The notes under the pieces: model-generated
Told to the model about the DNA's origin: nothing
Database searches by the model: none
Seen by the model: the letters and a program-made list of their open reading frames with translations, nothing else
Shown: piece after piece, positions 26,777-40,384 of the stretch
Position numbering within the stretch: position 1 is the first letter of the stretch
Layout: each line of letters opens with the position of its first letter
Origin: Candidatus Methanophagales archaeon
GTDB lineage: Archaea; Halobacteriota; Syntropharchaeia; Alkanophagales; Methanospirareceae
Direction: 5' to 3'
Length of the DNA stretch: 51,367 nucleotides
NCBI GenBank assembly: GCA_003336485.1
Contig: QENH01000193.1
Location: 1 to 51,367 of the forward strand
Made by a program: the position numbers and the translations under genes

Positions 26777-27811
26777 TTAAAGCCTCAATTCCCCTGCTAC
26801 ACTTACGCCCATATTTATCGTTACTTCTGCTATATCCTCACAATACTTCGCTATCCTGCCTAAACTCGCCAGTATAGAAAGAGCGTGTATTTTGTCGGTG
26901 ACAGAGCATTCTTCTGCCAGTATTCGCTCATTTATCTCTTCAACAGCATCAGAAAGAATAGTTGCAGCTTTTATCGCTTCATTCGCCTTTTTTATATCTA
27001 AATCAGATAATGAAGCTAACGTCGCAATGAACAGAGTTTTAGCAGAAACACCTGCCTCTTTTATGCCTTCTAAGCCCTTAAATTCGCCCGGTAATGACAT
27101 CATCATAGAATTCTTTGCTATGTTCTCTACATGGTCACCGATCCGCTCCATGCTCTTTACTATTATTCTGTGACCCAGGCTATCGCGCTGTCGGCCCACG
27201 CCTATCTTCTTCGCAAGCTCGGAGTCGCTCATCGCAGCCTTAAGCTGCCTCACAATTAGCAAATAGAATCTATCTATCTCGTTATCTCGCTCTACAACAT
27301 TAGCCGCAAGGTTAAGATCGCGTGTATCAAGTGACGCGATTGCATCTTCTTGCATTGACAATATTATCATGGACATACTACGTATCGCATCCCGTAGCGT
27401 AAAGTCCTCGTACTTCAAGAAACTCTTGAGCACTATTTCACCCGCGGATTCACCAACGACCTCCATACCTATAAGCCTCTTTCTTACCTCATCCTTTATC
27501 CGCTTCCTTTCATCAGCGCCAAAACCGTCTGGGAACAAGAGCTTTATGATGTCATATCCGACGAGGTAATGGGCGATGATACACCGGAAGTTCCCCTCAA
27601 AGCTTTCTTGTTCTGATAGAACGAGTTCAGCGCTTTTTATCTGCTCTCTCTTATCCCTCACGGGCGTTAGAATGAGCGAGTTGTCAGTACGCTGAACCAA
27701 AGAGAGTTCATCGCCTTGCTTTATTCCTACATCCTTTGCCCATTTTATAGGTAGCGAGACAGTAAAAGTCGAACCACCAGTAAGTTGTATCTTTCTCTTC
27801 TCTTCTTTCAT
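26777..27811 (-). CDS. AbrB-PhoU regulatory protein
   Basis: About 344 residues from the ATG at 27811, chosen because the recognisable SpoVT/AbrB swapped-hairpin domain starts there (KIQLTGGSTFTVSLPIKWAKDVGIKQGDEL) in short pieces: GGSTFTVSLP and GIKQGDELSL. Two PhoU-like helical bundles follow, with RDNEIDRFYLLIVRQ and MERIGDHVENIAKNSM, the metal-binding-type motifs of PhoU. Archaeal AbrB-PhoU proteins are thought to link phosphate status to gene control. No phosphate transporter is adjacent. It is divergent from the Mpa/ARC-like ATPase gene. Confidence 0.88.
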   Translation of the reverse strand: MKEEKRKIQLTGGSTFTVSLPIKWAKDVGIKQGDELSLVQRTDNSLILTPVRDKREQIKSAELVLSEQESFEGNFRCIIAHYLVGYDIIKLLFPDGFGADERKRIKDEVRKRLIGMEVVGESAGEIVLKSFLKYEDFTLRDAIRSMSMIILSMQEDAIASLDTRDLNLAANVVERDNEIDRFYLLIVRQLKAAMSDSELAKKIGVGRQRDSLGHRIIVKSMERIGDHVENIAKNSMMMSLPGEFKGLEGIKEAGVSAKTLFIATLASLSDLDIKKANEAIKAATILSDAVEEINERILAEECSVTDKIHALSILASLGRIAKYCEDIAEVTINMGVSVAGELRL

Positions 27812-27962
27812 CGTATTATGTGTCTTATGTCGATACGCTTTTATTTTGAGCCATGTATTTGCTACAAATTGCAATGCATCAAGAATATATATATAAGGCT
27901 AGATTATATAGTAATTAAAATAACCAGCTTCTTTGGTGATGCTTTCTTTTTTAACGAAAGCT

Positions 27963-31447: not shown

Positions 31448-33010
31448 ATGAGTGAGCGGATGAAGAGCGCAGGTACAGAGAATAAGATAAGAGGCATAGA
31501 GCAGGAATACCCAGTGAGTGCCAAAGCGGGTATGAATCCGTCCTTGCTCGTTAATGCTGCGATACAAGGAATAAAACACGGTAAATTTTCGCGGGATGTC
31601 AACTGGGACGTGGTTATGGAGATCACGCAAGAAGCGCACGAATCGCGAATATTGTCCTCATATGGCAAAAACGGCAGTCGTATTTATAACGATCTGGGCC
31701 ATCTCGAAATATCGACACCGTCGTACAACAATCCCTTTGACGCTGTGGCATATGATAAGGCATCAGAGATATATGCCTATGTGGGCTCACGGGAGGCGAG
31801 TTTGGCGTTAAAGAAGGAAGTGCGTATCCATAAGAATAATGTCGCCAACTTCTTTACTTCTCTTGGCAGGTGGAAGGAGAAAGGAAAGAAGGGAAGGATA
31901 AAGACCAATACGTACGCTACGCATGGCAATATAATAACCAAAAGGGAAGCGTGCAAGGATTGGAGTCGCGTAGAAAAGGCTTTATTACCCTGGATAATTA
32001 CGAGAATCTTGTTTACCGGGTCAGGAGATGTTGTTTCTGGCGACATGATAAGAAAAGGAAGCGTGAAGTTCGTAATTTCGCCGCGGGCTATGTTTGTAGC
32101 CCATAAGTCTTCTCTTTCCACTACACGCGAGCGAGGCATATTGAACACGAGAGACCAGCCCCATGCTGCGCATCAGTACTGGCGACTGCACGACATCCAT
32201 TACGAAGCACTTCGGTCGCAATATGCGATTTTCTTACGCGATATAGTACAAGCGCAGGTGATTTGCGCCTTTGAGTCAGGGTTCTTAGACAATGCACCTG
32301 CGATAGAGGATCCTGTGAGTGCGTTTAAGAAACTGTCATTGGATACACAGGAATGCAAGTGGCAGCTAAAATTGAAGAGCGGTGAGGTGACCGATGCAGT
32401 ATCCATATTACAGTTCTATTTGGATGCGATAGAGCAGATGCATGAATTTGGTGGTACGGAACTAGGTAAGTGGGATGAACTGGGTCTGAAAGGGTTTAGG
32501 GAACTGTTAGACGATTTAGAGGCTCGGCACATGGAGAAATATGTGGATGGCATAGATTGGGTAACGAAATTGGCGCTGCTTGTGAATTATGAACCCAAAA
32601 GCGCTTCGGAAGGAATAAGCATATGTAACCAGTATGCCTTACTGGATGAAAGCGTACAGGAATACATAGAGGGCAAGAAGGGCAGTAGCGCCTGCCTGTT
32701 CAATCCCTCAGATTCAATGGCATTTGCAAAGAGTAAATTACCGCAGGTAAATTGGTCTTCGTTTCCTGATCGGGTAAGATATGCACTCAGTAATGCACCC
32801 GAGCAAACGCGCGATTTTTTTAAGGCGGAAGTAATGAAACGATATGGTTCGCAAGTGAGCAGTGTTAGCTGGTCAACATTGGTGCTTGACAAAGCGAAGA
32901 TAGCATTGGATGAGCCGTTTATGTTGAACAAGGAAGAGATAGAGCTAAGGGGCGGAATAGAGGAGATCATATCAGCAGCGAAAAAGTTATATCCTGAGAA
33001 GGTTAGTTAA
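31448..33010 (+). CDS. Dop-like depupylase/deamidase homologue
   Basis: 520 residues, close to bacterial Dop (about 500). Dop removes Pup from substrates and converts a C-terminal Gln of Pup to Glu. Landmarks: GIEQEYPVS (16-24, E18), a Dop-type insertion with NWDVVMEI matching the WDYE-type segment but shorter than in actinobacteria, then NGSRIYNDLGHLEISTP with the catalytic Asp kept (D82), HKNNVANFF, GSGDVV, LNTRDQPH and WRLHDI, and near the end TRDFFKAEVMKRYG followed by VSWSTLVLD, aligning well with Dop's TRAYFRGECLRRFG block. The normally conserved HEN motif reads HGN (G160). Because the Pup-like protein already ends in Glu, deamidation would be unnecessary; depupylation is the expected job. 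Confidence 0.85.
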   Translation: MSERMKSAGTENKIRGIEQEYPVSAKAGMNPSLLVNAAIQGIKHGKFSRDVNWDVVMEITQEAHESRILSSYGKNGSRIYNDLGHLEISTPSYNNPFDAVAYDKASEIYAYVGSREASLALKKEVRIHKNNVANFFTSLGRWKEKGKKGRIKTNTYATHGNIITKREACKDWSRVEKALLPWIITRILFTGSGDVVSGDMIRKGSVKFVISPRAMFVAHKSSLSTTRERGILNTRDQPHAAHQYWRLHDIHYEALRSQYAIFLRDIVQAQVICAFESGFLDNAPAIEDPVSAFKKLSLDTQECKWQLKLKSGEVTDAVSILQFYLDAIEQMHEFGGTELGKWDELGLKGFRELLDDLEARHMEKYVDGIDWVTKLALLVNYEPKSASEGISICNQYALLDESVQEYIEGKKGSSACLFNPSDSMAFAKSKLPQVNWSSFPDRVRYALSNAPEQTRDFFKAEVMKRYGSQVSSVSWSTLVLDKAKIALDEPFMLNKEEIELRGGIEEIISAAKKLYPEKVS

Positions 33011-33030: not shown

Positions 33031-33082
33031 TCAAAGAGCGGGAATATTTATTTACTATGGCGTGGCAGAGAGAGGGTTTAAA

Positions 33083-33337
33083 ATGGACGTGATTAAAGGC
33101 AGTATGGAAGAGGTGGAGTTAGAAGCGGAAGAGGAAGAGGAAGAGGAAGAGCTATTAGAAGGTGAAGTAGAATACGGCGGAGAGGAGAAGGATAAAGAGA
33201 TGGCGGGCATAATGGGGCGGTTGAAGAAAAGGGAGAACAAGGAGAAAGCCGCTGATCTTGTAAGCAAATTGAAGGGTAAAAAGAAATCGAATAAGAAGAT
33301 AATGCATTATGAAATATACGCAACTTCAGGGGAATGA
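33083..33337 (+). CDS. Pup-like small acidic protein ending Ser-Gly-Glu
   Basis: 84 residues from the ATG at 33083, preceded by a good ribosome-binding site (GAGAGGG, 6-base spacing). A GTG at 33062 would add seven residues. The N-terminal half is strongly acidic with a run of Glu (about 13-31); the middle is charged and probably helical (DKEMAGIMGRLKKRENKEKA), and the tail is MHYEIYATSGE. Bacterial Pup is 60-75 residues, acidic, disordered with a helical centre, and ends in an aromatic-rich segment plus GGE or GGQ. Size, acidity, tail and position directly behind ATPase, ligase and Dop genes all support Pup. Homology is too weak to be certain from sequence alone. It may also have its own TATA-like element near 33022. 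Confidence 0.7.
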   Translation: MDVIKGSMEEVELEAEEEEEEEELLEGEVEYGGEEKDKEMAGIMGRLKKRENKEKAADLVSKLKGKKKSNKKIMHYEIYATSGE

Positions 33338-36304: not shown

Positions 36305-37207
36305 TATACAATGTAGACGAGGGTTAAAGGGAAGGAGAGAGAAGAAGGGACTAGAAATAAAAAATAGAGTGATAGAACCGAAGGAAGTAAGAAGAATAGC
36401 GGTGGTGTCTTTGTAGTTAAGTTAAGAGTACGAGTTGGAGATTACAGGATACTCTATGAATATCTAACGAAACCAAGAAGATATTTAGGGAGGAAGAGAT
36501 GATAAAATATTGGATATGTTAGTTGAAACGGCTGGATGATTTTGTTTGTGATTGAAATGATAACACGGCATTAGTTGATGGAGGAAGGAAGGAAAGGAAA
36601 GGCGGAGAGAGTTAAAGCGTGAAGAAGATCAAATCATAAATCAGTAAATCTTCTTAGCTTCTGGGATTTCTCCCTCTTTTGCAAATCTTCTCTGTTCTAT
36701 CCTATTGTTCGGCTTTTCGACCACGTAGGAGATGCAGACACCGAAACACATCGCTATTAGAACGATTTTAAACATCACTCCCTGTTTAAGCCTTCTCGAA
36801 GCGCCGATAATAAGTATTTATCACAAAAGCATCCACATTTGGTCTTTTAGCTCTATTATAAGCGAGCTGTCCATTTATATCATCATAAAACAGTTGTTCT
36901 AACACACACACATATTTTTTTTTGGTCCCATTTCAGGTAGAATCAAATTTAATGGATTTTTTGTTGTGCTTTTACAATTCAATGAATGAGTGGCTGTGAA
37001 TACGCAAAAGATGCATTTAAAATTTAGAGTTATAGGGTAAGTTAGGGATGGGGCCAAATTTTAATAGCTTCATTATCTGTCTATGTTGAACACAAGTTAG
37101 TTCTACTTAAAGCTTTCTATACTGTTCCGTACAATGTACGTTTCGCTGTAAACATATCTCTTATGGTTAGTGGAAGAAGCGACAAATGTGGAGGCGAATA
37201 TCAGAAG
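36305..37207. other. Long region with gene remnants only
   Basis: No intact recognisable gene. At 36428-36460 there is a near copy of the RelE segment RVRVGDYRILYEY, sharing about 30 bases with the relE pseudogene at 35217-35247. A minus-strand 41-codon frame from a GTG (36786-36911; ends YYRRFEKA) and the short frame listed separately below are not recognised. The rest is AT-rich, with the probable promoter for the 37208 gene in its last 150 bases. Confidence 0.5.
36641..36775 (-). CDS. Possible 44-residue membrane peptide
   Basis: ATG at 36773-36775, a hydrophobic segment FKIVLIAMCFGVCISYVV, then a charged tail ending PEAKKIY. GGGAG lies just upstream. No homology recognised; it may be a remnant. 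Confidence 0.25.
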   Translation of the reverse strand: MFKIVLIAMCFGVCISYVVEKPNNRIEQRRFAKEGEIPEAKKIY

Positions 37208-40200
37208 ATGAAAAAAGGCGATAAATGGAAGAAGGTTTTGGGTGTGATTGTGATCTTGGCGATTATTGTGGCAGTATTTAGTGGTGCCGTGTCGGCTGAG
37301 GATGTGTCGAGAGGGTTAAAACAAAGTGTTGTCGACAAGGCCCCTAGTAAAGACAACACCATTTTAGATGAGGAATATGGCGTAGTGCCAGCGGAGGATG
37401 TGTCGGAGGGGTTAAATGAAAGTGTTGAAGATGCGGAGATACAAACTGCATTTGCTGAGGATAAAATACAAAGTCTGAATAGCCAAACTGAGATCTTTGT
37501 GGGACAAGGCTTCGATAAATGCGAGATACCCACCCTAAGCCAAATGCAAAATTGGATAACTAACAGCCCTTATGGAGCAGTGAACCTCTATATCGGTGGT
37601 TCATGTCGTAGTTGTCCTAACTCGGCGCTAACAGCTTCTTACGTATCACAACTAAGCCAGCAAGGTTGGAAGTTCATCCCTACTTGGGTGGGCCCACAAT
37701 CTGCTTGTTGGGGTGGCAGTTGTGGCAGCATAAGCAATGATCCAGCTACCGCTTACAACCAAGGCATAAGCGAAGCAAATGCTGCCATTGGTGTTGCCAT
37801 CGATCTCGGACTTGCGTTGGCGGATGGGTCGGGTACAATCATCTATTATGATCTAGAGGGTTACGACACAACGAATACCGCGTGTCGTAATGCTGCTAAG
37901 TCTTTCATTTCCGGTTGGACTGCCCAGCTTCACGCGAGAGGTAGCTATGCGGGTGTCTATGGATCAGCCTGTAGCTCGGCAATTAGCGACTTCGCTACCA
38001 TAAGCAATATCCCTGATGCTGTTTGGGCCGCTCACTGGTTAACTCCATACCAATATAGACCTGACGCTACGGTGTGGGATGTTGCATGTCTATCAAACGG
38101 TCTCTGGGTTGACCATCAACGCATCAGACAATACGCAGGCGGGCATGGCGAAACGTGGGGCAGTGTTACGCTGATTATTGATTGCAATGTGATTGATGGT
38201 ATCGTGGCATCTGTGGGAGACAAGTTCAATATAGGTGATACTGTTAGAGTTACTACGAATCTTAATGTGCGTACCGGACCAGGAACTAGCTACCCAGAAA
38301 TTACAGATCCCGATTATCCCGGTTATGCACCAGCAGGAACTATTGGAACAGTCCTTAGCGGACCTTCAAGTGCTGATAGTTTTATTTGGTGGGAGGTGAA
38401 TTACGGTCCCGGATTATATTCCGGTTGGTCTGTTGAAGGTGGACTTGAGAAAGTTGACGATAATATACGGCCAACAGTTGATGCTTTCTCTGTCACGCCT
38501 GCTTCTGTCACTTTGGGTGACTCATTTACTGTATCCTATACAGTCTCAGATACAGGCGGTTCCGGTCTAAAGCAGGTAGAACTCTGGCGAAAAGGTACGG
38601 GATCTTGGGAACAAATCGACGTAACCTCGCTTGTAGGCGAAGGTGACGGACCTTATTCTAATTCATTCTACGATGCGCCTACTTCAGTTGGCACTTATTT
38701 GTATGGGATACATGTACAGGATATTGCAGGAAATGAGGGTCTGGAACCAGACCCACCTGGTCCAATTGAGGTAGAAGTTACGCCTGTGAACCAGCCGCCA
38801 ACGCTATCAAACGGTTATGTAACTCCAGCTTCAGGCGATACATCAACAACCTTCGATTATTACGTCACTTACACTGACTCTGATGGAGATGCACCAACAA
38901 CGAAATACGTTTATGTTGATGGGTCGCCGCACATGATGACAATGGTAAGCGGGTCCTACACCTCAGGCGCTACTTTCAAATATTCTACCACGCTTTCGGC
39001 AGGGAGCCACAATTATTACTTCTATTTCGATGACGGGCATAGCCATACAAAGCGATTGCCTACTTCAGGAACGTATTCGGGTCCTACTGTATGTGGCAAC
39101 ATGGGTGTGAATCCAACGACCTGGAGTCCACCAACGCTAAACTGTGGCGAGTCGGATAGCCAAATCGTCACTGTTTCGGCAACTGGTGGTACGGTTGAAG
39201 GTGTAACGGTAAGTAAGATTTCTGGAGAAACATGGCTCTCTCTTAGCCAGACAAATCTCGGGGACATACCCTCCGGCTCGAGCGAGACATTCACGATGAC
39301 TGCTGCTCCACCTTCCGAAACCAGCGGAGATTTTACGTACACTGTCCGAGTGAGCAATACCTGTGGAAGTCCGTCATCGAGGGATGTGACAGGAACGATC
39401 CATGTGGAGTGTCCTGATACAACACCGCCATCAGCCGTTACAGACTTAGCTACAATTGACCCGACAAGCAACTCAATAAAACTCACATGGACAGCGCCGG
39501 GCGATGATGGTAATACTGGCACAGCCACAACCTACGATATTAGATATTTGGAAGGAACATCAATAACAGAATCTGAGTGGGCTTCGGCAATTCAATGCAC
39601 AGATGAACCATCACCAAATCCTGCTGGTAGTGCTGAAGCGTTTGTTGAGACAGGTTTGTCACCGGATACAACATATTACTTCGCACTAAAAACCGCGGAT
39701 GAAGTACCCAACTGGTCTCCGATTTCTAACAGTCCAAGTGGGACGACAGAACCGGGAGAAGTGTCAATCATTTCAATTGACCCATCAAGTTCTAAGATCA
39801 GTGCAGGTTCGACCACAAAAATAAATCTAACCCTTGATAAAGCTCCAAATGGTCTTTCAGGCTATAATTTAACAGTATCATTGTCCAAGGTAACTGTGGC
39901 TGAGATAGTATCCGTAAGCTTCCCATCATGGGCAACTTTACATGATAACTCCACACTTCCTGCGGGTTCGATTTGGATGAAAGCCGCAGATTTAAGTGAT
40001 CAAGTTAAAAGTGGTGCAACTGATATCAACCTTGGAACATTAACGCTTAGAGGGGATAATCAAGGGACGAGTGATATAGTTATAACGGTTACAAAGATGG
40101 ATGATGATAATGGGTATCCGATTAATCCAAATACTATATCAGGTCAAATAGAAGTTACCAGTGTCATTCCAATTCCCGGACACACCAATCCACCCACTGA

Positions 40201-40384
40201 CCCTGACAGTGATGGACTTTACGAAGATTTGAATGGTAACGGCATGAAGGACTTCGATGATGTTGTTCAATTCTTCAAATACATGGAATGGATTGAGGAT
40301 AATGAGCCTATTGCCTGTTTTGACTTCAATGGTAATGGTCTGATAGATTTCGCTGACATAGTGACGTTATTTAAAGAGGTGTAA
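37208..40384 (+). CDS. Large secreted multidomain protein: glycosidase-like, SH3, Ig-like, FN3, cohesin-like and dockerin domains
   Basis: 1058 residues from the ATG at 37208 ([12 protein letters not shown]), where a signal peptide begins (cleavage after VSA near 31). Domains by rough position: a DUF1906/Rv2525c-type glycoside-hydrolase-like TIM barrel at 97-331 ([20 protein letters not shown]); a bacterial SH3 domain at 348-413 ([13 protein letters not shown]); Ig-like or Big domains at 420-738; fibronectin type III at 738-848 ([18 protein letters not shown]); a cohesin-like beta domain at 851-986; and a C-terminal dockerin at 998-1058 with two calcium loops [12 protein letters not shown] and [12 protein letters not shown]. 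It was probably exported and attached to other cohesin-bearing surface proteins, perhaps acting on cell-wall or matrix polysaccharide. The next gene, 5 bases away, carries a nearly identical cohesin-like domain. Confidence 0.8.

Follow-up and report, generated by a model that had tools for sequence, protein, structure and literature searches.

Gene organization of the locus

The window, meaning the entire 51,367-nucleotide stretch that was analyzed, belongs to a Methanophagales (ANME-1) contig and carries a four-gene operon on the plus strand, encoding an ARC/Mpa-like AAA ATPase, two PF03136 enzymes (g2 and g3), and an acidic protein of 84 residues (Table 1). The gaps to the following start measure 17 nt between the ATPase and g2, 41 nt between g2 and g3, and 72 nt between g3, whose stop at 33010 lies upstream of the last gene, and the ATG of that gene. 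An earlier note on this DNA had placed an ORF at 33062-33337 and described its product as a Glu-rich protein of 84 residues. Translation confirmed both the ORF and the protein, which measures 91 residues from the GTG or 84 from the ATG and ends in KKIMHYEIYATSGE before the stop codon. The ATG agrees with the start of many homologs (MDVIEGSMEE, MKSDVFEGRMEE).

Two further genes of the window were noted. Divergent to the operon lies a gene for a protein with MazE/AbrB-type DNA-binding and PhoU domains, a possible regulator, and a large secreted-looking protein combines an Rv2525c-like glycoside hydrolase domain with Fn3 and an end that appears dockerin-like by eye.

Table 1. Coordinates of the operon genes and of two further genes in the window
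Feature	Position	Strand	Evidence
MazE/AbrB-PhoU protein	26777-27874	-	
ARC/Mpa-like AAA ATPase, 547 aa	27991-29634	+	Pfam AAA, TIGR03689, BLASTP
g2, PF03136 enzyme, 584 aa	29652-31406	+	Pfam 193 bits, alignment to solved structures
g3, PF03136 enzyme, 520 aa	31448-33010	+	Pfam 217 bits, alignments
Candidate Pup-like modifier, 84 aa	33083-33337	+	ORF, homolog alignments; 91 aa from the GTG at 33062
Large secreted-looking protein	37163-40384		

Conservation and distribution of the small protein

Among the aligned homologs, which measure about 74–100 residues depending on the start chosen, the N-terminus is acidic and variable, and the C-terminal half is conserved, basic, and predicted to be helical, with a consensus of approximately KEMAxIMERLKKREKKEKAADLVSKLKGKKKVNKKIMPYEIYATSGE and an almost invariant tail (NKKIMPYEIYATSGE). 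The copy in the window reads IMHYEIY (within 33305-33337), with His in place of the Pro (IMPYEIY) shared by all other copies seen. An AF2 model of moderate confidence (mean pLDDT 69) shows a low-confidence N-terminus followed by C-terminal helices at residues 34-71 and 75-82. Pfam and NCBIfam searches returned no significant name for the small protein, and a PDB sequence search with its profile yielded chance matches only.

A profile of the last 51 residues (51 columns) was searched against the 53 genomes of the order and 341 other Halobacteriota. Of the 53 genomes, 48 contain the small protein, with every one of the 15 genera represented; the 341 others yielded no match. The distribution of PF03136 runs in parallel (52/53 within the order, 0/341 outside); co-occurrence limited to one order is therefore phylogenetically confounded. 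Scanning downstream of g3 located a homolog at 38 loci and had suggested that some genomes lack the protein. This idea was dropped, as the gene sits on another contig in ten genomes (e.g., G051, G098, G076, G142, G113, and G156), with an identical tail. Overall, the small protein accompanies the operon enzymes in 48 of 51 genomes, and in the remaining three (G171, G205, and G313) the contig ends inside g3 or no more than 90 nt past it. The other two genomes without the small protein are also without the operon enzymes: one (G215) has no PF03136 protein, and the sole PF03136 protein of the other (G308) is an orphan third-type paralog. In one genus, the gene lies outside the operon and adjoins a putative PRPP synthetase gene, with a putative ketol-acid reductoisomerase gene nearby (L126, L127, L128, L129, and L130). 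Separately, g3 and the small-protein gene are doubled and mirrored on a single 13.6 kb contig (G225:C191), which is likely an assembly palindrome.

Bacterial Pup has been described as a protein of 50–90 residues with a bihelical core, a G[EQ] end, and a PafA neighbor (PMC2588565). A tail of the form YEIYAT[SA]G[EQ] closes all 49 distinct archaeal sequences, unlinked copies and those of a second family of the small protein (f2) included. The terminal triplet is Ser-Gly-Glu in 46 sequences, Ala-Gly-Glu in two, and Ser-Gly-Gln in one. Gly-Gly ahead of the terminal residue is absent from these 49 sequences; because the published signature comprises G[EQ] only, the Ser-Gly or Ala-Gly is a variant that does not exclude the protein from Pup. 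The earlier note had expected homologs to retain a terminal Gly-Glu or Gly-Gln and to be linked to PafA/Dop genes, and both expectations were borne out, with homologs found only where PafA/Dop-type enzymes occur. Ser in place of the first Gly, which it had pointed out in this copy, is the rule (47 sequences). The note had also reasoned that an encoded terminal Glu makes deamidation unnecessary; this would apply to 48 of the 49. The exception (G123, L049:1031-1276) ends in Gln through a CAG codon and represents either a deamidation-requiring lineage or a single-base error.

The low-complexity, Glu-rich N-terminus could be taken for that of a chance acidic ORF or an assembly artefact. However, when 48 distinct nucleotide versions of the final 51 codons were compared, variable sites were distributed over the three codon positions as 27/25/50, indicating that selection acts on the protein, and extra synonymous codon types outnumber extra residue types (114 versus 81). 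Occurrence in 48 genomes, this synonymous turnover, and the invariant tail refute the idea of a chance ORF, to which we assign a negligible probability.

The PF03136 enzymes

Both g2 and g3 score far above the PF03136 (Pup_ligase) cut-off of 25 bits and possess the GhExE and metal-binding residues by which PafA and Dop are recognized. Residues were checked by alignment to the solved structures of CgPafA (4B0T/4BJR) and AcDop (4B0R) and across the order. In g3, the catalytic Asp82 (D94 in AcDop, D64 in CgPafA), GhExE, Tyr, and Glu are kept in 38 of 38 distinct sequences, as are both metal-site His residues, the acidic/Mg ligands, the Thr-Thr pair, and the alpha-loop Arg. In g2, the position of CgPafA D64 is taken by Cys76 in 19 of 19 distinct orthologs, Ser-Pro stands for Thr197-Thr198, and Trp stands for one Arg, while the ATP and metal residues are kept. 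Mutation of the Thr pair slows bacterial PafA, and an Arg is essential to it (PMC7947786); this essential Arg is retained in both archaeal enzymes. The active-site spacing of g2 is of the PafA type, with a one-residue insertion adjoining the catalytic position. That insertion is missing from g3, as in Dop, and of the Dop-loop g3 retains only a short remnant, WDxxxE. The full Dop-loop (40–65 residues before strand beta-2) is absent from the archaeal enzymes, in which GhExE and NGxRxY are spaced by 52–53.

In a maximum-likelihood tree built with seven reference sequences from Actinobacteria, PafA and Dop group together, and g2 and g3 fall outside. With these references, a tree that groups g2 with PafA and g3 with Dop was rejected (p-AU 3e-4), as was the opposite grouping (p-AU 4e-8). 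The placement of the archaeal pair outside the bacterial PafA/Dop split is provisional, given few references and long branches, and on this comparison neither g2 nor g3 should be named PafA or Dop. The earlier note had called the gene upstream of the small protein Dop-like. A PF03136 enzyme does precede it, but the label is oversimplified: the archaeal enzymes are not one-to-one orthologs of PafA or Dop, g3 holds the canonical catalytic set, and it is the partner g2 that has Cys at the catalytic Asp position.

Because its catalytic set is complete, g3 is slightly favored as the ligase, with g2 as its Cys-containing partner or the remover of the tag; the reverse assignment appears nearly as likely. 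A more tentative scenario, which we hold to be rather unlikely, is that the pair forms a separately evolved old archaeal branch in which g2 uses Cys76, either for a thioester relay to lysine or, acting as a cysteine isopeptidase, to take the tag off again. In the thioester variant, the modifier would be carried on Cys76 and relayed in the manner of a ubiquitin E3, on a glutamine-synthetase fold.

Several ANME-1 genomes also contain an orphan third PF03136 paralog (L073:2003-3523, L074:2075-3673, L075:2900-4423, and L077:2647-3567), in which Cys replaces the catalytic Asp (YICN/YLCN) and no Pup-like gene was seen alongside. In L073 and L080, the two copies in which the alpha-loop was read, it is GGGG. 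Close relatives of g3 in a named collection are mostly Methanophagales/ANME-1 MAGs (some are labeled Methanosarcinales), which identifies the window as ANME-1. The g3 scan of the viral collection gave no match. A single match, in a record from feces labeled Bacteriophage sp. (L151, MT835496.1), contains an ARC-Dop-Pup-PafA locus of bacterial type; this contig most probably comes from an actinobacterium and was misassigned.

The ARC-like ATPase and the proteasome

The first gene of the operon encodes an ATPase with a predicted N-terminal helix (residues 13-45), a beta-rich middle region, and a single AAA domain containing the Walker A motif GPPGCGKT, FFDEID, and a pore-loop-type W-L-G. It scored 157 bits against TIGR03689 (pup_AAA), below the cut-off of 504.75, and similarly against PAN models. 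By BLASTP, residues 15-319 are 27% identical to bacterial ARC, in an alignment that begins in the N-terminal helix. Its AF2 model is poor (pLDDT 39). The protein ends in EETGMHF, and TGMH[F/Y/L] is conserved in the order; neither GQYL with its penultimate Tyr nor HbYX was found at the C-terminus order-wide. Mpa, by comparison, ends in GQYL (PMC8755798). Genes for the alpha and beta subunits of 20S and for a separate PAN lie elsewhere in the genome.

These features bear on the fate of a tagged protein. The tag may be conjugated for a non-proteolytic purpose, as may hold in the Pup systems of proteasome-less bacteria, and the lack of the penultimate Tyr used in 20S docking, together with the separate PAN, fits this. 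However, the operon itself includes an ARC-like ATPase whose N-terminus is predicted to form a helix, as that of Mpa does, its TGMHF end positionally resembles GQYL, and 20S subunits are available. We regard the non-proteolytic purpose as possible but doubtful, and degradation of the tagged substrate by the 20S proteasome as plausible from the gene content.

A candidate pupylation-type pathway in ANME-1

Judging from these comparisons, the small protein is highly likely to serve as the modifier in an archaeal system of the pupylation type. In the proposed pathway, a PF03136 enzyme would use ATP to phosphorylate, in its active site, the side chain of the terminal Glu, which would then be joined to a substrate lysine. 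The predicted helical half of the modifier would bind the coiled coil predicted in the ARC-like ATPase, which would thread the presumably disordered N-terminus and pass the substrate to the 20S proteasome. Conservation of the tail in all distinct sequences, even where the gene is unlinked, supports this assignment, as do the parallel distribution with PF03136, the strong Pup_ligase matches of both enzymes, the intact catalytic set of g3, and the presence of 20S and PAN; the predicted helices behind the N-terminus of low confidence are like the published description of Pup (PMC2588565). Against it stand the missing link to bacterial Pup by PF05639 or hhalign, the lack of the catalytic Asp in g2, an ATPase end that is neither GQYL nor HbYX, and the confounding of the co-occurrence by phylogeny.

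Alternatively, the small protein could act unconjugated as an accessory factor, regulating the ATPase or the PF03136 enzymes or serving them as an adaptor, with its Gly-Glu end conserved solely for docking. Conservation of the entire basic C-terminal half, beyond the last residues, would suit such a factor, as would the lack of a sequence tie to Pup. Nevertheless, the PF03136 enzymes that have been characterized, a ligase and a hydrolase, act on a small protein at its C-terminal Glu or Gln (PMC2588565, PMC7947786), and an invariant terminal G[EQ] encoded behind PF03136 genes is what their chemistry requires. Moreover, the sole terminal replacement, Glu to Gln, is the one exchange that also occurs in bacterial Pup. 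An accessory role consequently appears improbable to us.

No match to PF05639, the Pfam model of Pup, was obtained in the genome or in 36 members of the small-protein family, and hhalign of the small protein with a bacterial Pup gave a probability of 0.1%. The protein is thus assigned to a new Pup-type family rather than to recognized Pup orthologs. The proposal of an archaeal Pup in the earlier note is accordingly upheld in substance: the comparative evidence makes a Pup-type function likely, whereas homology to bacterial Pup is not demonstrable by sequence. We describe the protein as a Pup-type modifier by its probable mode of action; common descent from Pup is unproven.

Pupylation has been placed in Actinobacteria and scattered other bacteria only (PMC2588565, PMC3511204, PMC7947786). 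No paper on archaeal or ANME pupylation was found in the partial literature collection, and an earlier mention elsewhere is possible. In methane-oxidizing ANME-1 archaea, proteins are very probably tagged by a Pup-like modifier, through a type of system for which the descriptions to date come from bacteria. The non-orthologous archaeal enzyme pair and the invariant Cys in g2 are new here, as is the complete catalytic set of g3. If the interpretation is true, Pup-type tagging extends to a second domain, to archaea that already own a 20S proteasome and PAN. It would also bear on the origin of the system, as the archaeal pair lies outside the bacterial PafA/Dop split, and would provide a naturally occurring pair of enzymes in which an active site is changed. 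Furthermore, it offers a starting point for work on how ANME-1, which are central to anaerobic methane oxidation, target proteins for turnover. If the tag is conjugated, trypsin would leave a long IMPYEIYATSGE branch on lysine.

Comparison with known systems

SAMPs are beta-grasp proteins with a Gly-Gly end and depend on an E1. The small protein resembles SAMP/Urm1-type modifiers in being a small archaeal protein with a proposed joining to lysines, but it is predicted to be helical, ends in Gly-Glu, and is encoded beside enzymes of the glutamine-synthetase fold. The Gly-Glu end and the predicted helices, as opposed to Gly-Gly on a beta-grasp fold, set it apart from SAMP and ubiquitin-like proteins.

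The two enzymes share with PafA and Dop a domain-wide profile match, GhExE, the metal-binding residues, and their arrangement as adjoining paralogs. They differ in not being one-to-one orthologs, in lacking the full Dop-loop, and in the Cys of g2 at the catalytic Asp position, and g3 mixes signature residues of PafA with those of Dop. Mpa/ARC (TIGR03689) combine an N-terminal coiled coil, tandem OB domains, and one AAA domain. The ATPase appears to resemble them in its predicted N-terminal helix, beta-rich region, and single AAA domain, but scores under the equivalog cut-off and has GMHF for GQYL. Compared with bacterial Pup (PF05639), the candidate modifier shows no detectable sequence similarity, has Ser (or Ala) for the first Gly, encodes the terminal Glu in 48 of 49 sequences, has a basic C-terminal helix by prediction, and occurs in an archaeal host. 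Nonetheless, it is like Pup in its approximate length, variable N-terminus, predicted helical C-terminal part, and terminal Gly-Glu or Gly-Gln, and its gene is likewise associated with those for PF03136 enzymes and an ATPase of the ARC/Mpa type.
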